Assembly (NCBI GenBank): GCA_016871275.1
Contig: VFZG01000035.1
Location: 1 to 40,615, forward strand
Reading direction: 5' to 3'
DNA: 40,615 nt
Source of the DNA: Acidimicrobiia bacterium
Lineage (GTDB): Bacteria; Acidobacteriota; Vicinamibacteria; Vicinamibacterales; UBA2999
Positions 22,473-33,754 of the stretch are shown here, one piece after another. The notes below the pieces were generated by a model. It made no database searches. It was not told the DNA's origin and worked only from the letters and a program-made list of their open reading frames with translations. The translations under genes were made by a program, and so were the position numbers. Numbering within the stretch: the stretch's first letter is position 1; every line of letters starts with the position of its first letter.

Positions 22473-23585
22473 TTAGCCGCGGTAAAAGGACCGGATGGCG
22501 TTGACGACGGTAGACTGCTGCGCCTCGGTCAGCTCCGGATAAATCGGCAGCGCCAAGGAGTCAGTGGCGGCGGCTTCGGCAACCGGAAACGCGCCCCTCT
22601 TGTAGCCGAGGTTGGCAAAACACTCCTGCAAATGAAACGGCACGGGGTAGTAGACCTCGGTGCCGATGCCCGCCCGATCGAGATGGGCCTTCAACCGGTC
22701 GCGCTCGGGCACGCGGATCACGAACTGGTTGTAGATGTGCGTGCGGTGCGGCGCCTCGGCCGGCAGCGTGACCTCGGCAAGCGAGGCGCCCGCAAACATC
22801 GCGCGGTAGCGCTGCGCATTGCGGCGGCGGGCGGCGCTCCAGTCCGCCAGATGCGGCAGCTTGACGCGCAGCACAGCGGCCTGCACCGCGTCGATGCGGA
22901 AGTTCGCGCCGACCAGGTGATGGTAGTACTTCGGCTCCATGCCGTGCGTGCGAATCAGCGTCAGCTTCTTCGCCATCGCCGGATCGGATGCCGTCACGAA
23001 CCCGGCGTCACCGAACGCGCCGAGGTTCTTGCTTGGAAAAAACGAAAAGCACCCCACCGCGCCCCACGTGCCCACCGGCTTGCCATGATACTCGCAGCCG
23101 ATCGCCTGCGCGGCGTCTTCAATCACCGCGACGTGCTGCGTGGCGGCGACGTCGACAATCGGTTTCAACTCGGCGGCCTGGCCGAACAGGTGGACCGGAA
23201 TGATCGCCTTGGTGCGCGGCGTGATGGCCGCCAGCGCCTGCGGCACGTCGATGTTGAACGTGTCGGGCTCGCAATCGACCAGCACCGGCCTGGCGCCGAC
23301 CCGGACCACGCACCCCGCGGTCGCAAAAAACGAATACGTCGGTGTGATCACTTCATCGCCGGGCCCGATCTCGAGCGCCATCAGCGCGGCGAGCACCGCG
23401 TCGGTGCCGGAGGAGAGGCCGACGGCATGCGGATAGCCGAGCCTCGCGCTGAGCTCACGCTCGAGGCCCTCGACCTCAGGTCCGCCGATGAATCGCTGAC
23501 TGTCGCACACACGCGTCACGGCATCGAGCAAGGCCTGCCGGAGCGGCGTGTACTGTGCGTGGAGGTCGAGCAGGGGAACTGTCAC
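22473..23585 (-). CDS. DegT/DnrJ/EryC1 (AHBA synthase-type) sugar aminotransferase
   Basis: This 370-residue PLP enzyme transfers an amino group to a keto-sugar nucleotide. The PLP lysine is Lys186 in FFPSKNLGAFGD, Asp157 in VIEDAAQAIG contacts the pyridine nitrogen, and GLSSGTDAV forms the phosphate loop. The C-terminus has the substrate segment VYYPVPFHLQECF. It most resembles WbpE/UDP-3-keto-GlcNAcA aminotransferases, which fits its downstream partner, the UDP-N-acetylhexosamine dehydrogenase. The start is GTG 23585, nine bases after a TAGCAT box, without a ribosome site. It is divergent from a PA14-containing membrane transferase. The product sugar would be an amino-uronic acid for the surface polymer (inference). 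Confidence 0.92.
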   Translation of the reverse strand: MTVPLLDLHAQYTPLRQALLDAVTRVCDSQRFIGGPEVEGLERELSARLGYPHAVGLSSGTDAVLAALMALEIGPGDEVITPTYSFFATAGCVVRVGARPVLVDCEPDTFNIDVPQALAAITPRTKAIIPVHLFGQAAELKPIVDVAATQHVAVIEDAAQAIGCEYHGKPVGTWGAVGCFSFFPSKNLGAFGDAGFVTASDPAMAKKLTLIRTHGMEPKYYHHLVGANFRIDAVQAAVLRVKLPHLADWSAARRRNAQRYRAMFAGASLAEVTLPAEAPHRTHIYNQFVIRVPERDRLKAHLDRAGIGTEVYYPVPFHLQECFANLGYKRGAFPVAEAAATDSLALPIYPELTEAQQSTVVNAIRSFYRG

Positions 23586-23594
23586 AAACCACCA

Positions 23595-23609
23595 ATGCTA
23601 CCGTAGAAT
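23595..23609. promoter_or_regulatory. Back-to-back -10-like boxes TAGCAT (minus) and TAGAAT (plus)
   Basis: TAGCAT on the minus strand (23600-23595) ends nine bases before the aminotransferase GTG at 23585. TAGAAT on the plus strand (23604-23609) ends 20 bases before the GTG at 23630. The two boxes are three bases apart, so their polymerases would exclude each other. Confidence 0.5.
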
Positions 23610-23629
23610 CAAGCCCGGCCCAAAAACCG

Positions 23630-25693
23630 GTGCTCGGCTTTCGCGTGACCGTCCTCCTCTGGCTGCTTTATTTCCTGCTGCCGTCCGAACGCGGCGTCAT
23701 CGACGGCGTGCCGCTCGGGCGGGTCGAGACGATTGGTGTGCTGCTGGTGTTGTGGATCGCCGCGCACCGCGGCCGCATCCCCGGCGCGCGCACCGCCGCC
23801 ACGCTGGCCGTGCTTGCGTCGGTGGCCGCGGCGGCCGTGCCGGGCGAGCGCGGACTCACGGCGCGCTACTTCGCCACCGAGTCGCCGAGCGGTCCATTCG
23901 AGCGCAGCACTGAGTACCGCGGGGCCGGGTTCACGCGCATCGACGCCCGCCTGGACTTTGCGCGCGGCACCCACGACCTGCCGCTGGCGTTCTTCAACGA
24001 CCACACGCGCTTCAATTTCATGCAGATGGGCCAGCCAGACCGGCGCGGGCTGGCGTTCGCGGTGACGTGGACCGCCTGGCTGCACGTTGCCGACCATCGC
24101 GCCCGCCGCTACTACCTGCACGCGCCGGGATCGTCGGCGCAACTGTCGATCGACGCGACCCCGATCCTGACGGCGACATCGGCGTCCCCCGCTCCCACGC
24201 TCGATCTCGCCCTGGCTGAAGGGTGGCACCGCGTCCACATCACGTTCTCGTCGCCGTACCAGGCGCCGCGCGAGTTTTCGGCCGGCGAGATCGAGAACGG
24301 CGTGAGGATGCCGTTCGATGCCGCGCGGACGCGAACCGAGCGCATCGATGAGCGGTCGATGGCGCTGGCCTCGGTCGTCGGCGCCGTCAAGCACACCGCC
24401 GATTGGGCGGCGCTGGCCTGGCTGTCAGCGCTGTCCGCACTGATCCTGCTGCGGCGCGCCGGCGAGGTGTGGTCCGCCGTCGCGTTCGGAGCTGCTACGG
24501 ACACCCAGCGCGCGGGTGCGTACACGGCTGCGGTCGCGCTGTTCATGGCCGCCGCCGCTACGGAGGCAATCAGGTTTGCGTGGCCGTGGGCTGAACGCCT
24601 CCGCATCATGGTCGCCGGCGACGACACGATGGTGTACGAAGGCTACGCGCGCGACATTCTCTTCAACGGCATCTTGATGAACGGCGGGCTGCCGCCGGGC
24701 GCGGCCGAGCCGTTCTACTTCCAGGCGTTCTATCCCTATTTCCTGGCCGCCACGCACGCCCTGTTCGGTGACAGCTTCTTCGGCGCGCTGTTCCTGCAGC
24801 GGCTGTTCGTCGCCGTGACGGCAGTGGCGTTGACGCGGATCGCCATCAGGCTGCGTGGTGTCGACGGGTGGCCAGTGGCGCTCGCCGTGTCGACACTGTT
24901 TGGGTACTGGAAACTCGCGCCGATTTCGGCGGATCTGCTCAGCGAATCGTTGTACGTGCCACTGCTGGCCGTCTGGGCATGGTTGAGCGTGGAGTTGGCA
25001 ACGCGACCGTCGATAGGGTTGGCTGCTTGGACCGGCCTGGCCGGCGGGCTGACCGCGATGACCCGTACCACCATCCTGCTGGCCTGGCCGATGGTGTGGA
25101 GCCTGCTGTTCGCGAAGCTGCGCACCTCGCCGTTCCGGACAAGCGCAATCGCGATCCTCGCGGCGGTATCGCTGGCGTTGTTCTCGTTAATCGGTATCCG
25201 CAATGCGGTGGCCAGTCATCAGTTCGCGCTCACGCCGACCGGACTCGGCGTGACGCTGCGCGGCGGCAACGAGCCGCCGCCGGGCCTGACGTTGAGTCGG
25301 TCACGCGTCGCCCTGTACGAGCGCCTGGGCGTAGGCGGCTACACGGCGGACGTCATCGAATACGCCATCGCGGCGCCGCGCGCCTTCGCCGCCAACACCG
25401 TCCGCAAGGCGCTCTTCGTGCTGGGCTTTTACGAGGCCTGGATGCCGGGCTGGGGATACTCGCCGGTCTACGTCGCCACGTGGATCAGCGCGCTCGGCGG
25501 CGCGTGGCTGCTGTGGTTCCGGCTGCGAGGCGATACCCTCACCGCGTGGTTGCCGGCCGTCATGGCCCTCACGCAGTTTGTGGCGATTGTGATCGTCTAT
25601 CCGCGCGGCGAGCGGCTGATTGTTCCGATCCACACGCTGCTGATCCCCTACTCGGCCATCATGGCGGATTGGCTGTGGCGGTGGCGTCGATGA
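23630..25693 (+). CDS. Polytopic membrane glycosyltransferase (GT39-like) with a PA14-like outer domain
   Basis: With GTG 23630 the protein has 687 residues. Two N-terminal helices (about 5-20 and 33-46; a third hydrophobic stretch follows at 55-70) are followed by an outer domain at about 74-210. It begins GLTARYFA and has FAVTWTAWLHVADHRARRYYLHAPGS...QLSIDATPIL, which matches the beta-barrel PA14 fold known for carbohydrate binding. Then a GT39-type core begins with Asp331-Asp332 in VAGDDTMVYEGYARDIL and MTRTTILLAWPMVWSLL, followed by many helices. I infer a polyprenyl-phosphate-sugar transferase acting outside the inner membrane and holding its glycan acceptor by PA14. An in-frame GTG at 23645 is another possible start; the open frame to 23555 is rejected because it runs into the divergent gene. 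It ends in an ATGA overlap with the next transferase gene. Confidence 0.82.
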   Translation: MLGFRVTVLLWLLYFLLPSERGVIDGVPLGRVETIGVLLVLWIAAHRGRIPGARTAATLAVLASVAAAAVPGERGLTARYFATESPSGPFERSTEYRGAGFTRIDARLDFARGTHDLPLAFFNDHTRFNFMQMGQPDRRGLAFAVTWTAWLHVADHRARRYYLHAPGSSAQLSIDATPILTATSASPAPTLDLALAEGWHRVHITFSSPYQAPREFSAGEIENGVRMPFDAARTRTERIDERSMALASVVGAVKHTADWAALAWLSALSALILLRRAGEVWSAVAFGAATDTQRAGAYTAAVALFMAAAATEAIRFAWPWAERLRIMVAGDDTMVYEGYARDILFNGILMNGGLPPGAAEPFYFQAFYPYFLAATHALFGDSFFGALFLQRLFVAVTAVALTRIAIRLRGVDGWPVALAVSTLFGYWKLAPISADLLSESLYVPLLAVWAWLSVELATRPSIGLAAWTGLAGGLTAMTRTTILLAWPMVWSLLFAKLRTSPFRTSAIAILAAVSLALFSLIGIRNAVASHQFALTPTGLGVTLRGGNEPPPGLTLSRSRVALYERLGVGGYTADVIEYAIAAPRAFAANTVRKALFVLGFYEAWMPGWGYSPVYVATWISALGGAWLLWFRLRGDTLTAWLPAVMALTQFVAIVIVYPRGERLIVPIHTLLIPYSAIMADWLWRWRR

Positions 25694-27252
25694 ATCCGGT
25701 CGACACCGCCGGCGCCGCGCGATGGCACAGGGTGACATGGTTCATCGTCGTGCTCGCCGCCACCCTGCTGCGATCGATCGCGCTCGACCGGTGGCCCGGT
25801 ATCAACGGCGACGAAGCCTGGTATGGCGTGAACGTCCAGGAGCTGCTCGCCGGCCGCGACGTCTTCCTGCAGACCGGCATCGGCAATCCGTTGAGTCCCG
25901 TGCACTCGGGCGTGCTGCTGGCGCTGTCGTTGATCCTCGAGCCGTCGGGCACGCTGCTTCGGCTGCCCGAAGTCATCCTCGGCGTTGCCGCTGTTGCACT
26001 GGCGTATCCCCTGCTGGCCCGGCCGCTCGGCGTTCGCGTCGCCTGGCTGGTCACGCTGTTGCTGGCGATCTCGCCGGTGGCCGTCGCCTATGCCCGCCTT
26101 GGCTGGGACCCCAGCGGCACGCCGCTGGTCAGCCTGCTCGCGCTGGCGCTGGCGCTGCGCGATCGGCCGCTCCTGAGCGCGCTGGCGTGCGTCGCCGGAT
26201 ACCTGATCCATCCCACCAATGTCTTCATCGTGCCCATTGCCGCGGCGGCCTGGGCACCCTTCGGCATCGCCACCTTCCAACGCGCCAGCGGCGCCACGCG
26301 GGCGCGACTGAGAACGTTTGCGGTCGCGGGTCTCATCATGGCCATTCCGCTGGCCGGATGGATGGCGTGGCGCGTCGCGCAGAACCCCGACACCACGCTC
26401 CCATCGGTGCGCATGGTGATCGATCGGGTGACGTCGCCGGCGCGCTGGGCGGCCCGCGGCTGGGGCTTTGTGAACCTGGTCAGCGGCGTGTCAACTACGT
26501 CACACATCGCCGCGCCGCTGGCGGACCCGGTGGCCGCCGCTGCGAACACCACCTTCGCATTCGTGCTCGCCCTATCGCTGTTGGCCGGCTGGCCGATGCT
26601 CCGCGCCCATCAGCATGCGCGGTGGCTGCTCGCCGGCATGCTGGCCGCGTTTGCGGGGTTCCACGTCATCGCGATGGAGCTGGCCCTCCAACCGTCGCTC
26701 GAGCGCTACGGCATGTTCATGTTCGTGCCGATGCTGATCACCCTGGCCATGGCCGTTGACGCGTGCACCACACGCGCGCGAGCGGTGGGCCGGTTGGCGG
26801 CCTTCGCCACCCTGACGCTGTTCGGAGCGATGACGGTCGGGGCCTACTTCTATCCGATCGCCACTCGTGGTGGAGACGCGATCGCGACCTTTCGCACCGG
26901 CGCGGTGGAACCGAAGCTCGCCGCCTACGGATTCATTGCGGCACACAGTGCCGGCGCCGCCACGCGAGTGATTGCCGAAGACTGGTTCCTGTACTGGACG
27001 CTGCGCTACTTCGCGGGCACCAGCGGTCCAATCCATGTCGAGCCGGTACCTGGCGGCTCGCTTCCGGGCGGGACGAGACCACAGGGCGCAGCGGAGCCGC
27101 CATTGCCACCTCCGGCGCGAGCGTACGTGGTGACCTACGGCGAGAGCCCGTACCCGGCACAGTTGGACCTTGGGCGGCCGCTCTTCACCGCCTTCGATCC
27201 GATCGGACGGCCGGTAGTCCAGGTCTTCGCAGCGCCGCAGCTACTGCGCTGA
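25690..27252 (+). CDS. GT39-type membrane glycosyltransferase
   Basis: The start ATG at 25690 overlaps the upstream TGA (ATGA), which suggests translational coupling with the PA14-type transferase. The 520 residues hold about ten to twelve helices. After helix 1 (about 16-32) comes GINGDEAWYG with Asp41-Glu42, the acidic pair of GT39/GT83 enzymes that activates the acceptor hydroxyl. GYLIHPTNVFIVP corresponds to the R-P-x-N-like region, but with His in place of Arg. The C-terminal 110 residues form a soluble outer segment (GPIHVEPVP...AYVVTYGE) with a Pro/Gly linker. It probably uses a polyprenyl-phosphate sugar. Its last 12 bases overlap the end of the convergent OafA-like gene. The long frame before 25690 is only a shadow of the upstream gene. 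Confidence 0.84.
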   Translation: MNPVDTAGAARWHRVTWFIVVLAATLLRSIALDRWPGINGDEAWYGVNVQELLAGRDVFLQTGIGNPLSPVHSGVLLALSLILEPSGTLLRLPEVILGVAAVALAYPLLARPLGVRVAWLVTLLLAISPVAVAYARLGWDPSGTPLVSLLALALALRDRPLLSALACVAGYLIHPTNVFIVPIAAAAWAPFGIATFQRASGATRARLRTFAVAGLIMAIPLAGWMAWRVAQNPDTTLPSVRMVIDRVTSPARWAARGWGFVNLVSGVSTTSHIAAPLADPVAAAANTTFAFVLALSLLAGWPMLRAHQHARWLLAGMLAAFAGFHVIAMELALQPSLERYGMFMFVPMLITLAMAVDACTTRARAVGRLAAFATLTLFGAMTVGAYFYPIATRGGDAIATFRTGAVEPKLAAYGFIAAHSAGAATRVIAEDWFLYWTLRYFAGTSGPIHVEPVPGGSLPGGTRPQGAAEPPLPPPARAYVVTYGESPYPAQLDLGRPLFTAFDPIGRPVVQVFAAPQLLR

Positions 27253-29199
27253 GCCTGGCCGCAGCACCGGGCGCAGCACGTGCTGCGCAAGGTACACCGA
27301 ACCGAGTGGTGTGAGGTGCACGGCGTCGAACGTCATCAGCTCGGGAGGGTCGATGCCAGGGATGACCGCGAGGCAACCATCCGCGTCACAGAATCTGTTG
27401 ATGATCGACACATAGGTCAGCGTCGTCGACGCGGCGAATCTCCGGCGCAGGTCTTCGTCGAGCGTGAGCCTGGCTGTGGACAGTCCGTAGGCAATGTGCG
27501 GCGTCCTGGTCTCCCAGAACCGGTTGATGAAAATCTCTGGGAGGCTGGGCACCCACATCGGCGCCGGTCCCACCAGCACCACGCGGCCGACGCCAAGGTC
27601 GCGCACGTGATTGGCGAGGGCATCCCAGTCGGTCGACAAGTGATCGCCGGCCTGCGAGAGGATCAACACCTCGGGCTTCAGCTCGGCGATCCTCTGCAGC
27701 GCATAGGTGTTGGCGCGAACGCAACGCTTGCCGGGCACGTGAAGGTCGATCGGGCCGAGGCCGGGCCGGCAAGACGAGGTCGCCACCTGCGAAAACGCCA
27801 TGCCGTCCGGGACGAGACTGGCAATGCCCGGGGACAGCGCCTGGGCGTGCGAGTCGCCCCAGAGAAACCACGTCCCGTTCTCGCCGCGAGTCGTACAGCT
27901 GGGTGCGATGGATGTTCGGGAGCGATCGCTGACCAGTTCCATGAAGTCGCACTCGAGCCGATACGGTCCGGCAATGCCGGTGCGCCGCATCGCGTTGTAG
28001 TAGGCCGAGAAGGCGGCCTTGTCGGTCCGGTTAACGGTGCGGCTCCATAGTCCGTCGGCCCGGTAGGTGATCAGGCCGACGACGGCCGTCGCCGCCAGCA
28101 GCACGCACAGCGCCGGAACCACTGCCCGGCGCCGCGGTCCAAAGCGGATCGGTTTCTCGACCAGAACGTAGGTCAGCCAGGCCAGCAGGAACGACGCCAA
28201 CACGACAATCCAACGTGCGGTCACCCCCGGCACCTGACCCTCGCGTAACCGGACGATCGACAGCAACGGCCAGTGCCAGAGATACAGCGGATAGCTGATC
28301 AACCCGATCCCGACCACGAGCGGCCGCGACAGGAACCACCGGTTGACCACCGCGTCCGGACCGGCCGCAATCATCAGCGCGGAACCGGCCACCGGCAGGA
28401 TCGCCCACCGGCCGGGAAAGTGGCGCTGCTCGTCTATGACGACCATGCTGACGGCGATGAGCAGCGTCCCCATGACGCTGGCTGCATGCGTCGCGGCGGC
28501 GGCGGCCAGCATCGCGTCGTACCTGTGCCGGAGCCAGCGCAGGGCCCGCAGCGACGAGGGCGCGGCGGTGGCGTGCGCCAGGTGCGCGAGCATGGCGCCG
28601 GCCATCAACTCCCAGAATCGAGTGTGCGGCAAATAAAAGGTACCAACCAGGTCGCGGCGGATGCGATCGAGGTTGAAGTACATCGATACGGAGAACACCG
28701 CCAGCGTCAGCGCCAGCAGGTCGAACCGGCGCTTCCACGCCAGCCACGCCACCAGCGGCCAGATCAGATAGAACTGCTCCTCCACGCCGAGCGACCATAA
28801 GTGCAGCAGCGGTTTGGTGTCGGCGCCGCCGTCGAAGTATCCGGCCTCTCGCCACGACACGATGTTGGCCACGAAGCCGGCACCGGCGGCGGTGTGCTTA
28901 CCGAGCTCGGCGAACCGATCGGCAAACAACAGGAACCAGCCGGCCGCATAGATCGACCCGAGCACCAGGACCAGCGCCGGGAAGATGCGGCGAATCCGGC
29001 GCGCGTAGAAATCGCTGAAGCTGAATGTGCCGCGCTCGAGGGCGGAGAAGATGATGCCGGAGATCAGGAAGCCGGAAATCACGAAGAACACGTCCACGCC
29101 GACAAAGCCGCCGGGCACGCTGGTCGGGAACGCGTGAAAGCCAATCACCGCAAGCACGGCAATTGCGCGAAGGCCATCGATGTCAGGGCGGTAGGTCAA
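27241..29199 (-). CDS. OafA/YrhL-type membrane acyltransferase with C-terminal SGNH domain
   Basis: The 652-residue protein starts at TTG 29199 with MTYRPDIDGLRAIAVLAVIGFHA, the canonical start of acyltransferase-3 proteins, with His22 in the first helix. Further family motifs are GGFVGVDVFFVISGFLI, RRIRRIFPAL and LWSLGVEEQFYLIWP. Ten or eleven helices extend to about residue 375. The outer SGNH domain has GDSHAQALSPG (Ser450), LSQAGDH and DAVHLTPLG (Asp625, His628). Such fusions take acyl groups (usually acetyl) from a cytoplasmic donor across the membrane and place them on polysaccharide, as in O-antigen acetylation. It is divergent from the L-2-hydroxyglutarate oxidase-like gene with a 26-base spacer, and nine bases separate the TATACT box from TTG. 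It overlaps the GT39 gene end by 12 bases. Confidence 0.92.
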   Translation of the reverse strand: MTYRPDIDGLRAIAVLAVIGFHAFPTSVPGGFVGVDVFFVISGFLISGIIFSALERGTFSFSDFYARRIRRIFPALVLVLGSIYAAGWFLLFADRFAELGKHTAAGAGFVANIVSWREAGYFDGGADTKPLLHLWSLGVEEQFYLIWPLVAWLAWKRRFDLLALTLAVFSVSMYFNLDRIRRDLVGTFYLPHTRFWELMAGAMLAHLAHATAAPSSLRALRWLRHRYDAMLAAAAATHAASVMGTLLIAVSMVVIDEQRHFPGRWAILPVAGSALMIAAGPDAVVNRWFLSRPLVVGIGLISYPLYLWHWPLLSIVRLREGQVPGVTARWIVVLASFLLAWLTYVLVEKPIRFGPRRRAVVPALCVLLAATAVVGLITYRADGLWSRTVNRTDKAAFSAYYNAMRRTGIAGPYRLECDFMELVSDRSRTSIAPSCTTRGENGTWFLWGDSHAQALSPGIASLVPDGMAFSQVATSSCRPGLGPIDLHVPGKRCVRANTYALQRIAELKPEVLILSQAGDHLSTDWDALANHVRDLGVGRVVLVGPAPMWVPSLPEIFINRFWETRTPHIAYGLSTARLTLDEDLRRRFAASTTLTYVSIINRFCDADGCLAVIPGIDPPELMTFDAVHLTPLGSVYLAQHVLRPVLRPGSAQ

Positions 29200-29208
29200 C
29201 GGTCCAAA

Positions 29209-29216
29209 AGTATAGT
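29209..29216. promoter_or_regulatory. Symmetric bidirectional -10 element AGTATAGT with nine-base spacers both ways
   Basis: On the plus strand TATAGT (29211-29216) ends nine bases before ATG 29226. On the minus strand TATACT (29214-29209) ends nine bases before TTG 29199. The whole intergenic region is 26 bases: 9 + 8 + 9. Neither side has a ribosome site. Any -35 contacts must lie within the coding sequence of the opposite gene. Confidence 0.6.
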
Positions 29217-29225
29217 AGAGCGATC

Positions 29226-30317
29226 ATGGTGAACATCGATGTGGCGGTCATCGGCGGCGGCGTCACGGGGCTGGCCTCGGCGCTGGCGCTGGCACGCGCC
29301 GGCGCCACGGTGTGCGTCCTCGAACGGGAACCGAAAACCGGGCGTGCCACCAGCACGCACAACAGCGGCGTCATTCATGCGGGGCTGTACTACCCCGCCG
29401 GCTCACTGAAGGCGGCGCTCTGCGTCGACGGGCGCGACCGGTTATATGCGTTCTGCGCCACGCACCGCATTCCGCACGCCCGATGCGGGAAGCTCGTCGT
29501 GGCGGGCACCGCCGACGAGATTCCGGCGCTCGAAGCGCTGCATCGGCGCGCACACCAGAACGGTGTCACGTCCGTGACCATGGTCGATGCGAGCTTCGTG
29601 AAGCACAAGGAACCGCACGTCCATGCGGTCTCCGCCCTGTGGTCGCCCGATACCGGGATTGTCGAAGCGGAGGCGCTGGTCAAGACGCTCGAGCAGCTGT
29701 GCCGGCAGGCGGATGTGGCGATGGTCGTCGGCAGCCCGCTGATTGGCGCCGACGCGACCGCGGACGGCCTGGTGCTCACCACGCCACACGAACGGTTCCT
29801 CGCCTCGACGGTCGTGAACGCGTCGGGCCTGTACGCCGACGCCAACTCCGCGTTGCTGGGCGGACAGGCGTTCACGATTTATCCGTGCCGCGGTGAGTAT
29901 GCGGAGCTGGCGCCCTCGAAGCGCGCGATGGTCAACGGCCTGGTCTATCCGTTGCCGCACGCGTCCGGAGCTGGGCTCGGCGTCCACCTCGCCAAGACCA
30001 CCTGGGGCACCGTGACGCTGGGGCCGACGATCCGGTACCAGGACGACAAAGACGACTACGAGTCGGGACGGATTCCGCTGGACGACTTCGTGGAGCCGGC
30101 GCGGCACCTGCTGCCGTGGATCACGCTGGCGGACCTGCAGCCGGGCGGCAGCGGCATCCGCGCCAAGCTGCATGGACCCGATACGACCTTTGCGGACTTC
30201 CTGGTGGGACGCGACACCGTGAACCCCCGGATCATCCAGGCGTCGGGCATTGATTCACCAGGACTGACGTCGTGCCTGGCGATCGGTCATCGGGTCGCGT
30301 CGATCTGGCGGGAGTAG
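29226..30317 (+). CDS. lhgO: L-2-hydroxyglutarate oxidase-like FAD-dependent oxidoreductase
   Basis: The 363-residue protein is a DAO-type flavoenzyme. It begins with the FAD-binding MVNIDVAVIGGGVTGLASALALARAG and has HNSGVIHAGLYYP, GRDRLYAFC, YPCRGEYAEL and a C-terminal GIDSPGLTSCLAIG. These are the hallmarks of the L2HGDH/LhgO group, which oxidises L-2-hydroxyglutarate to 2-oxoglutarate and passes electrons to the quinone pool or oxygen. This is metabolite repair and does not fit the surface-glycan theme around it, so it may be a passenger or act on another 2-hydroxy acid. The ATG lies nine bases after TATAGT. The frame is open upstream to 29163, but that part reads through the divergent promoter and the OafA gene. 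It converges on gmd with six bases between. Confidence 0.88.
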   Translation: MVNIDVAVIGGGVTGLASALALARAGATVCVLEREPKTGRATSTHNSGVIHAGLYYPAGSLKAALCVDGRDRLYAFCATHRIPHARCGKLVVAGTADEIPALEALHRRAHQNGVTSVTMVDASFVKHKEPHVHAVSALWSPDTGIVEAEALVKTLEQLCRQADVAMVVGSPLIGADATADGLVLTTPHERFLASTVVNASGLYADANSALLGGQAFTIYPCRGEYAELAPSKRAMVNGLVYPLPHASGAGLGVHLAKTTWGTVTLGPTIRYQDDKDDYESGRIPLDDFVEPARHLLPWITLADLQPGGSGIRAKLHGPDTTFADFLVGRDTVNPRIIQASGIDSPGLTSCLAIGHRVASIWRE

Positions 30318-31355: not shown

Positions 31356-32426
31356 CTAGAGGAGAACGCTGTGGGTCAAGGTGGCGTGCTGGAGCCACAC
31401 GACCCACGACACCAACCACTTGAAGGGACGCGACGCCGCAGACGGCTCAGCCCGCCAGCGCTGATCGAGAAAATTGCCGTCAAGCCGGATCTGTCGCCCC
31501 GGATCGATGGTGATCGCCACCGGCGCCAGGCCGCTCTCGAACCGAAACTCGCGAGCACCTTCGTCGCCCGTCCAGCGCAACAGCGATCGTTGCTCTCCGC
31601 CGAAGTCAATCTGGATGAGCACGCCGCCGCCAATCGGCGGCCCCTGCCTGGTGACGGCGGCGGTCGTCTGATAGCAGCGCCGGCCGTCGCAATTCTGCAG
31701 CTGCGTCGATACGCCCGACAGGGAGTAGTCGACGGCGGTCCTCGCCTCGAGCAACGCGAAGAACCATGTCAGTGGTATGCCGAGCGCCGATTCGAGCCGT
31801 GCCCGCACCTCGTCATCGCCATTCGGGGCCGGCGGACTCAACAGGACACGAATCGCGGCGGCCAGCGCCGGCCAACCGACGACGCCCTCGAGCGACGCCA
31901 CCGCCTCTAGGGCGTGGATGACCGGCAACGGGATGCGATCGTCCCGGGCGTGTCTGGGCACCACCAGCAGCGGCACGCCCCAACGGACGTGGCCGCCAAA
32001 CAGCGACACTTCGTCGATGTGGTGGCCGGGCTGGCGCTGAACGATGTCGAACAATTCTTCGACGACGCGCGATTGCAGGTGCCAGGCAATGCCGTCGACC
32101 AGCGCCGCCGTGGTGTCCGACCCGTGGAGAGAGGCCAGGCGTGTTCGCGCCAGGGCCACGGCAACTTGAGACTCGAGGTGCATCGCCCCCGGCGACGACC
32201 ACCAGGGCACGCGCACAGTAATCGCCCTGGGTGTCAGCGAGGGAGCGGCGCCCAGCCACTCGTCGTAGCGCTGCGTCACCACGGCGATCGTGCGATCGAT
32301 GCGCGATGGCTCGCCGCCGGTCGACACGCTCGCATGGCCCGCGTCCTGCACGGCACCCGGTTGCGCGACACTCGCCAGCAGCGTGCCCGCCATCGCCACG
32401 CCGGCCACGATGACCGTCCGCAACAT
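31356..32426 (-). CDS. Secreted protein of unknown function, possibly a degenerate M1-peptidase-like protein
   Basis: The 356-residue protein has a signal peptide (MLRTVIVAGVAMAGTLLASV) and so is likely exported. I do not recognise a defined family. The central part VDGIAWHLQSRVVEELFD, the middle LGIPLTWFFALLEARTAVDYSLSGVST and the C-terminal VLIQIDFGGEQ...PVAITIDPGRQIRLDGNFLDQRW are reminiscent of the catalytic-helix, helical and beta regions of M1/gluzincin proteins, but the HExxH zinc site is missing. It may be a pseudo-enzyme or a binding protein. Two cysteines in NCDGRRCYQT could form a disulfide. It shares a 20-base divergent spacer with the GT87-like gene, so both are expected to be made together. 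Gmd lies 48 bases downstream on the same strand. Confidence 0.65.
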   Translation of the reverse strand: MLRTVIVAGVAMAGTLLASVAQPGAVQDAGHASVSTGGEPSRIDRTIAVVTQRYDEWLGAAPSLTPRAITVRVPWWSSPGAMHLESQVAVALARTRLASLHGSDTTAALVDGIAWHLQSRVVEELFDIVQRQPGHHIDEVSLFGGHVRWGVPLLVVPRHARDDRIPLPVIHALEAVASLEGVVGWPALAAAIRVLLSPPAPNGDDEVRARLESALGIPLTWFFALLEARTAVDYSLSGVSTQLQNCDGRRCYQTTAAVTRQGPPIGGGVLIQIDFGGEQRSLLRWTGDEGAREFRFESGLAPVAITIDPGRQIRLDGNFLDQRWRAEPSAASRPFKWLVSWVVWLQHATLTHSVLL

Positions 32427-32431
32427 TGCGG

Positions 32432-32438
32432 TAGTATA
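32432..32438. promoter_or_regulatory. Bidirectional -10 element TAGTATA in a 20-base divergent spacer
   Basis: On the plus strand TAGTAT (32432-32437) ends nine bases before GTG 32447. On the minus strand TATACT (32438-32433) ends six bases before ATG 32426. The spacer between the start codons is only 20 bases, so both messages are probably leaderless and mutually exclusive in time. Confidence 0.6.
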
Positions 32439-32446
32439 CGTGTCTG

Positions 32447-33754
32447 GTGCCTACGGCGCGCCTTTTCACCATCCTGCTGGTCGCCATCACGTGCACCCGC
32501 ATCGCGACCACGCTGTGGGCGGCGATGTGGAACAACCGGGGCGATTTCTACGCCTCGCTGCCGGGCACCTACGTCAAGCACCTCAACCCAACCTTGTGGA
32601 ACAGCCCCGACATGCAGGGGGCCATGGGGTATCACCTCGACACCTACTATCACGGGCCGACGCAGTACCTCACCCTCTATCCGATTGCCTTCCTCGATTC
32701 GTACGAGCAGATCGCCTGGGCGCTGCTGCCGCTGTTGGTCGCGGCAATCGCCGGCGGTTGGCTCTGTCTCTATCGGACGCTGACGCACCTGGCGCCTGGT
32801 GTGCGCATCGGCGTGCCGCTGTTCGCAGCCGCCTTCTTGTTCTTCCCGTTGCTGCAGGCGCTCATCCAGCGCGAGTTCGAGGTCATCATCTTTCTGGCCC
32901 TGTCGTACGGACTCCTGCAGCTGGTGCGGAATCGCCTGGCCACCGCCGGTGCGGTGTTCGGCTACGTGGCGTGGTTCAAGTACATCCCGCTGCTGCTGCT
33001 CGGCTACGTGCTGCTGCGCGGCTGGCGGCGGGCCGCCATGGCGTTTGCGATCACCTCCGTCGCCATTGTGGCGATGACGCACCTGTTGTTCGGGTTGGAA
33101 GAGTTCTACAACAACAACGTCCCCGGTCATGCGGCCCAGGTGTTCCGGGTGTTCGAGTACGGCTTTTTCTACGACCGCGGCGGCGTCTTGAACGGCAACG
33201 GCTTCTGCACCGGGTGGTTCGAAACCGAAACCACGCTGACCAATCTGCGCCATGGACTGTGCGCCGTGTCGGCCCGCATACCCGCGCTGCCGCCCAACGT
33301 GATCTACCTGTTGATCTGCGCCGCCGTCGCCATCACGTATCTGGTCACGCACGTCCGGCTGACCCGCAGCGAGCTCAGTCAGGCCGACGAAGGCTGGCGG
33401 CGAGCACTCGAGCTCTCGATTGTGATCACGGTCTGTGCGTGCTTCTTCTTTTCCCACTACTACTACCTGATCGTGTTGATCATCCCGCTGGCGGTGCTGC
33501 TGGTGCGATTCCTCGCCGCTGGGCAAGGCGCGTACCTGGCCGCGTGGGGATGCAGCTACCTGATGATCGGCGCGCTGGTAATACCCACCGGCATCCTGTC
33601 GCCTCTGACTGGCGCTGATGTCTGGGCGTGGTACGTCGGCAGCGGATTGTTTCTCTACGGCGAGTTGCTGCTGATCGCGCTGTTGATGCTCGAGTATTGG
33701 CGGCTGGCGTCGCGGCGAGTGGCCGCCGGCAGCGGCCAACCCGCGCTATCCTAG
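32447..33754 (+). CDS. GT87-like (DUF2029) polytopic membrane mannosyltransferase-like protein
   Basis: The 435-residue protein has about nine to ten helices. Helix 1 is followed by an outer loop with DFYASLPGTYVKHLNP and GYHLDTYYHGPTQYLTLYP, where the Asp and aromatic pattern resembles GT87 polyprenyl-phosphate-mannose-dependent transferases. FEVIIFLALSYGLLQLVRN, AWFKYIPLLLLGYVLLRGW and HYYYLIVLIIPLAVLLVRFL match the later helices of the family. The GTG start at 32447 is fixed by the short spacer to the divergent gene and lies nine bases after TAGTAT. The stop TAG lies within the TATCCT box proposed for the next gene. The likely role is adding a sugar from a lipid carrier during surface polysaccharide assembly; the sugar is not known. 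Confidence 0.78.
   Translation: MPTARLFTILLVAITCTRIATTLWAAMWNNRGDFYASLPGTYVKHLNPTLWNSPDMQGAMGYHLDTYYHGPTQYLTLYPIAFLDSYEQIAWALLPLLVAAIAGGWLCLYRTLTHLAPGVRIGVPLFAAAFLFFPLLQALIQREFEVIIFLALSYGLLQLVRNRLATAGAVFGYVAWFKYIPLLLLGYVLLRGWRRAAMAFAITSVAIVAMTHLLFGLEEFYNNNVPGHAAQVFRVFEYGFFYDRGGVLNGNGFCTGWFETETTLTNLRHGLCAVSARIPALPPNVIYLLICAAVAITYLVTHVRLTRSELSQADEGWRRALELSIVITVCACFFFSHYYYLIVLIIPLAVLLVRFLAAGQGAYLAAWGCSYLMIGALVIPTGILSPLTGADVWAWYVGSGLFLYGELLLIALLMLEYWRLASRRVAAGSGQPALS
33747..33752 (+). promoter_or_regulatory. -10-like box TATCCT overlapping the stop of the GT87-like gene
   Basis: TATCCT ends seven bases before GTG 33760. As with the kinase gene, the box overlaps the stop codon of the gene upstream. 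The match is weak. Confidence 0.3.

Follow-up and report, generated by a model that had tools for sequence, protein, structure and literature searches.

How are two divergent genes transcribed when only 26 nt separate their start codons? This question arises at positions 29200-29225 of a 40,615-nt stretch of DNA, which was analysed as a whole and is referred to here as the window, and which is contig C35 of an acidobacterial genome of 3.96 Mb in 124 contigs (G000). To the right of the spacer (CGGTCCAAAAGTATAGTAGAGCGATC), the plus strand carries an lhgO-like gene (29226..30317) for a FAD-dependent oxidoreductase of 363 aa with a Pfam DAO domain (PF01266, E 1.7e-59), whose product is LhgO-like only, as its 265.8 bits against the NCBIfam model of L-2-hydroxyglutarate oxidase (NF008726) lie below the 299-bit cut-off. 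To the left, the minus strand carries a gene (27241..29199) for an OafA-like membrane acyltransferase of 652 aa with Acyl_transf_3 (PF01757) and SGNH (PF19040) domains, starting at the TTG at 29199, which is the earliest ATG, GTG or TTG in frame and aligns to the ATG of the homologue in the related genome G002. On balance, it seems probable to us that the spacer is a promoter consisting of a -10 element alone and read both ways, in which an old lhgO box would have been co-opted in reverse by an incoming OafA-like gene.

The center of the spacer is occupied by AGTATAGT (29209-29216), in which overlapping -10 elements are present on both strands. On the plus strand, TATAGT (29211..29216), the putative -10 element of lhgO, ends 9 nt before the ATG at 29226. 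On the minus strand, the best candidate for the OafA-like gene is TATACT (29209..29214), likewise 9 nt from its TTG, which overlaps TATAGT by 4 bp and, with a score of 10.2, is the top -10 element in the 251 nt upstream of the TTG. Two alternative minus registers are TACTAT (29212..29217, 12 nt to the TTG, score 8.1) and TACTTT (29207..29212, 7 nt, score 5.5). TATAGT itself scores 8.9 and the median genome box 8.7, with a matrix built from 129 boxes of the genome, among them this very site. Predicted transcription starts assume a distance of seven bases from the final T of the -10 box to +1, which places the start of lhgO at about 29223, with a 3-nt leader, and that of the OafA-like gene at about 29202 from TATACT, 29205 from TACTAT or 29200 from TACTTT. 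The predicted start-to-start distance is consequently 21 bp with TATACT, the strongest register, 18 bp with TACTAT and 23 bp with TACTTT.

Within the 526 nt upstream of lhgO (28700-29225, plus strand), TATAGT is the sole TANNNT, and in the 601 nt upstream of the OafA-like gene (29200-29800, minus strand) this motif occurs only as the three overlapping registers; thus, an ordinary nearby -10 element for either gene, if there is any, must be one of the boxes at 29207-29217. No good -35 hexamer stands 15-19 nt upstream of TATAGT (best match 2/6), the best candidate on the minus side is TTCACC (4/6), 15 nt upstream of TACTTT, and a sigma-70 scan of 28700-29700 returned no promoter-like site. Shine-Dalgarno pairing is weak for both genes, with -2.1 kcal/mol for lhgO and -3.0 kcal/mol for the OafA-like gene, as computed with an assumed anti-Shine-Dalgarno tail.

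Boxes this close to a start codon are an ordinary feature of this genome. Our sample of 1.24 Mb was made up of the window and 60 stretches of 20 kb each, with genes from a codon-usage script and starts called, as in the window, by an in-house script. Among 957 starts, TANNNT occurred 45 times at a spacing of 6 nt, 24 times at 7, 22 times at 8 and 38 times at 9. In all, 127 starts had at least one box 6-9 nt upstream, as compared to a mean of 12.8 for equally wide windows placed further upstream, where the background was 3.2 per position, or about 0.34%. The spacing peaks at 6 and 9 nt and falls sharply at 10 (5 starts). By start codon, 82/639 ATG, 41/280 GTG and 4/38 TTG starts were boxed, the last including the OafA-like gene, and the boxes resemble real -10 elements, the fourth base favouring A and the fifth A or C. 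Two further genomes of the genus gave 23/328 boxed starts at 2.9 expected (G007, 420 kb) and 16/228 at 3.6 expected (G004, 318 kb), and a control of 39 E. coli K-12 coding sequences, with annotated starts instead of those of our caller, gave one match at about 3.7 expected. Start-proximal boxes are thus common in three genomes of the genus, and their excess over upstream windows indicates that near-leaderless starts are common in the acidobacterium of the window. This abundance agrees with the figures of Zheng et al. (2011; PMC3160421), who list leaderless genes in 3/3 Acidobacteria, with a mean of 13.3%.

These frequencies also set in proportion what a first-pass annotation of the locus had described. 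Its account of a 26-base spacer with TATAGT and TATACT each 9 nt from a start codon is correct. The "exact mirror spacing" does not hold up as a signal: it applies to one minus register of three, and the equality of both distances is unremarkable since 9 nt is one of the two spacings that the genome prefers. Its term "leaderless" is borne out insofar as start-proximal boxes are common in the genome, but it gives way to the more exact "near-leaderless", because the predicted leaders are of about 3 nt.

The lhgO direction can be followed through relatives. Our genus set comprised nine genomes including that of the window, six of which have a full-length lhgO, and three of the other eight (G003, G005 and G006) yielded weak matches only. 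GTATAGT precedes the lhgO ATG by 8, 8, 9 and 10 nt in G001, G004, the window and G007, respectively, that is, in four of six genus members, and it was retained though the flanks have diverged and the divergent neighbour is a different one each time: an unknown ORF in G001, DegT in G004, the OafA-like gene in the window and a GT87 gene in G007. G002 instead has TATCAT 6 nt before the start and no GTATAGT, and in G008, where the upstream gene lies in tandem, there is no start-proximal box. Across the order, 11 of 29 lhgO loci, drawn from the best 30 matches, are boxed 6-10 nt before a plausible start (L011 was dropped for having no upstream DNA; L030 is included and boxless), some lhgO match being found in 117 of 119 genomes. 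A contig search for further close relatives gave 11 loci, the two nearest named ones (76% and 59%) from Acidobacteria MAGs. The genome-wide peak of such boxes and the conservation in genus relatives set the plus-strand box above chance, and we consider it very likely that it is an active promoter in the lhgO direction.

The complete AGTATAGT precedes lhgO in three genomes, namely that of the window, G001 and G007, the latter two without an OafA-like gene there. Their divergent neighbours also face a reverse box: TATACT lies 11 nt before a GTG of the G007 neighbour and 6 nt before a GTG of the G001 neighbour. The G007 GT87 gene has an alternative start at an ATG 30 nt further in, but the GTG is preferred because residue 5 of the window's orthologue aligns with G007 residue 7. 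A run of N by tandem repeats (L094:8801-8922) was observed within the G001 neighbour, whose N-terminus is unreadable; owing to this internal run the start of that gene is uncertain.

An OafA-like gene upstream of lhgO is absent from the other five lhgO loci of the genus, and the homologues in G001 and G002 sit behind a same-strand gene, with no TANNNT near their starts. Since no other member of the genus has the two genes side by side, there is no sign of selection acting on the minus direction. Instead, lhgO has a DegT aminotransferase gene as its conserved divergent neighbour, found in the window at 22473..23585 on the minus strand (PF01041; 77% identical to the G004 neighbour), with a predicted -10 element of its own, TAGCAT (23595..23600, minus strand), 9 nt before its GTG. 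This spacing of exactly 9 nt between a TANNNT and the DegT GTG recurs in 6/6 genus members and in five of seven loci of other genera. By eye, a -35-like element containing TTG was also seen about 17-18 nt further upstream of the box (23586-23622 in the window; L196, L197, L094, L198, L093). The DegT and lhgO starts are directly divergent in G002 (137 nt apart) and G004 (65 nt), and seven lhgO loci of other genera have neighbours that share the DegT N-terminal sequence.

The window retains this orientation of DegT and lhgO with 5.6 kb between them, a variable stretch of three genes (23586..29225) that ends on the right with the 26-nt spacer. Besides the OafA-like gene, it holds two plus-strand genes, one of 687 aa (23630..25693) with a weak PMT_2 match (25.6 bits, just under the 26.1-bit cut-off) and one of 525 aa (25675..27252) with no Pfam match at 1e-3. 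Elsewhere the two genes are separated by 2.8 kb (G007; GT87 and a 490-aa ORF), 6.2 kb (G001) or 8.3 kb (G008), so that the site holds differing gene sets in four of six genus genomes and none in two. BLASTP at 1e-3 found no match between proteins of different inserts among these four; within the G008 insert, four proteins match each other, three of which are called methyltransferases by Pfam. With DegT and lhgO kept and the genes between them differing, the OafA-lhgO spacer is the edge of a variable insert. From the six genomes we infer that insertion preceded reuse: the lhgO box would be the older, conserved half, genes of surface-polysaccharide type would have been inserted between lhgO and DegT, and the OafA-like gene, thereby brought beside the box, would use its reverse. 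Alternatively, differential gene loss from a larger ancestral set could give the same pattern.

Whether such reverse use is plausible may be judged from other short divergent pairs. In the G000 sample we counted 124 divergent pairs: a box at 5-10 nt precedes both genes in 17 of them, one gene in 32 and neither in 75; at distances of 10-29 nt, 4 of 11 are boxed both ways, and two of these four lie inside the window. The second one is a 20-nt spacer, TGCGGTAGTATACGTGTCTG (32427..32446), with TATACT on the minus strand (32438-32433), 6 nt before the ATG of the gene at 31356-32426, and TAGTAT on the plus strand (32432-32437), whose distance to the GTG of the GT87 gene there (32447-33754, Pfam GT87) is 9 nt. 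The minus-strand gene of this pair has weak relatives only, in five of six genomes queried. The GT87 gene has no match in G001, G002, G004 or G008, and it is 49% identical to the GT87 that diverges from lhgO in G007.

Three genomes together yielded 17 divergent pairs with gaps of 14-40 nt; a box is present on at least one side in 12 of these and on both sides in six. Compared with boxes of tandem genes at matched distances (mean null probability 0.114), 6/12 corresponds to a P of 7.9e-4, and to 0.0034 (5/11) without the 29200-29225 site. A harsher null keeps one box and shuffles the remaining letters of the spacer; with the higher of the two anchor-specific probabilities, it predicts 2.8 two-way pairs among the 12 (P 0.017; 0.027 without the site). 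Two-way boxes are therefore enriched, modestly, as a class among short divergent pairs. The boxes overlap in four of the six pairs and stand apart in two; the other three overlapping pairs share 5 bp, an 18-bp geometry, as compared to 4 bp and 21 bp at 29200-29225 in its best register. When TATAGT is fixed there and the rest shuffled, a minus box at a spacing of 5-10 nt appears in 60% of trials, and when TATACT is fixed, a plus box appears in 29%; with a reverse box so frequent in shuffles of this A-rich spacer, the site alone proves nothing about the OafA direction. Support for that direction comes from elimination, from the strength of the box and from the modest enrichment over short divergent pairs, and we consider it probable that the box is an active promoter for the OafA-like gene as well.

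Of the earlier promoter reading, then, the start-proximal -10 element of lhgO and its standing as the sole TANNNT set near both genes remain, and its uniqueness, mirror geometry and co-conservation with OafA do not; AGTATAGT persists before lhgO in relatives, independently of OafA. Nor is the arrangement the "extreme case" it was taken for, given a second two-way pair 3.2 kb away and two more pairs with overlapping boxes in the genome sample.

The main competitor of a promoter read both ways, less probable but still a serious one, is a promoter that serves lhgO only, with the near-palindromic TATA core producing the reverse box as a by-product and the OafA-like gene either silent or driven from within lhgO by a promoter other than TANNNT, for instance of an alternative sigma factor. 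The frequency of reverse boxes in the shuffles is what such a by-product would give, and the lack of conserved adjacency, with the G001 and G002 homologues lying behind a same-strand gene, as well as the TTG start, a poor codon for leaderless translation, fit a one-way box too. Furthermore, a reverse TANNNT overlaps the -10 boxes of tandem genes in 8/63 (18-bp) and 11/63 (23-bp) cases, versus 15/68 and 14/68 for divergent genes. Yet the 601 nt upstream of the OafA-like gene offer no further TANNNT, its reverse box scores above the genome median, and two-way boxes in short divergent pairs are commoner than under both nulls.

That the transcripts begin inside the opposite genes, with ordinary leaders and ribosome sites, is often the case where divergent gaps are short and might find a foothold in the weak TTCACC upstream of TACTTT, but we regard it as improbable here given the empty sigma-70 scan, the lack of any other TANNNT nearby, the weak Shine-Dalgarno pairing of both genes and the start-proximal position of GTATAGT in relatives. 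Least probable is that an AT-rich octamer arose by chance in a GC-rich gap and has a promoter role in neither direction: the genomic background of TANNNT does produce isolated matches, but hardly a box that persists in four of six genus members despite diverged flanks and different neighbours and that has counterparts at 11 of the 29 lhgO loci drawn from the order.

If a promoter read both ways is indeed at work, TATAGT would start the lhgO mRNA with its leader of about 3 nt, and these base pairs, read the other way, would start the OafA-like mRNA at about 29202 (29200-29205 across the registers), leaving it a leader of 1-6 nt. The 4-bp overlap of the two best boxes would entail mutual exclusion if both directions work: RNA polymerase would open one direction at a time, so that firing would be either-or, which is a fair physical inference.

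Both ingredients are of a known kind. Bidirectional promoters that rely on -10 symmetry were described by Warman et al. (2021, as presented in PMC10268837); they are commonest between divergent genes of the Salmonella chromosome and E. coli and usually have a start-to-start distance of 18 bp. As in those promoters, a near-symmetric -10 element could be used on both strands at 29200-29225; unlike them, the predicted distance is 21 bp in the best register, and 18 bp only with TACTAT, and both transcripts are predicted to start no more than about 6 nt from their start codons. A TANNNT -10-like element without leader is likewise documented in high-GC genomes (Zheng et al., PMC3160421; a Deinococcus-Thermus study, PMC12340547), and here, too, the box sits by the start codon; with its first T as the reference, the signal of Zheng et al. 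is about 12 bp upstream, as compared to 15 bp here, hence the 3-nt leader. In contrast to the leaderless systems of these two sources, the spacer would have one element for two genes. Among the matches listed by searches of the literature on leaderless genes, divergent, bidirectional or overlapping promoters and Acidobacteria, no title or abstract opening described such an arrangement, and a narrow search for mapped transcription starts in Acidobacteria found no paper.

Variable gene sets between conserved sugar-nucleotide genes are known from surface polysaccharide loci. The present locus is similar in that differing sets of glycosyltransferase, acyltransferase or methyltransferase genes lie between the same two conserved genes, DegT and lhgO, and it is dissimilar in that these edges carry -10 boxes at their starts, one of them perhaps used in reverse by the last gene of the insert. 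We tentatively extend this to the notion, speculative and rather doubtful at present, that -10-only promoters of near-leaderless genes are ready-made landing sites for foreign genes. As nothing upstream of the -10 element is needed, insertion would be possible right up to the box, and a near-symmetric box would then drive, in the reverse direction, an incoming end gene that brings neither promoter nor ribosome site. Within one genus, three unrelated neighbours might in this manner have taken over the lhgO box, namely the OafA-like gene, GT87 and the unknown ORF. If the reverse direction is active, two nearly leaderless mRNAs would share a promoter of about 8 bp, close to the smallest two-way regulatory unit imaginable, the lhgO and OafA-like genes would be forced to compete, and there would be a concrete route by which acquired genes are expressed on arrival.
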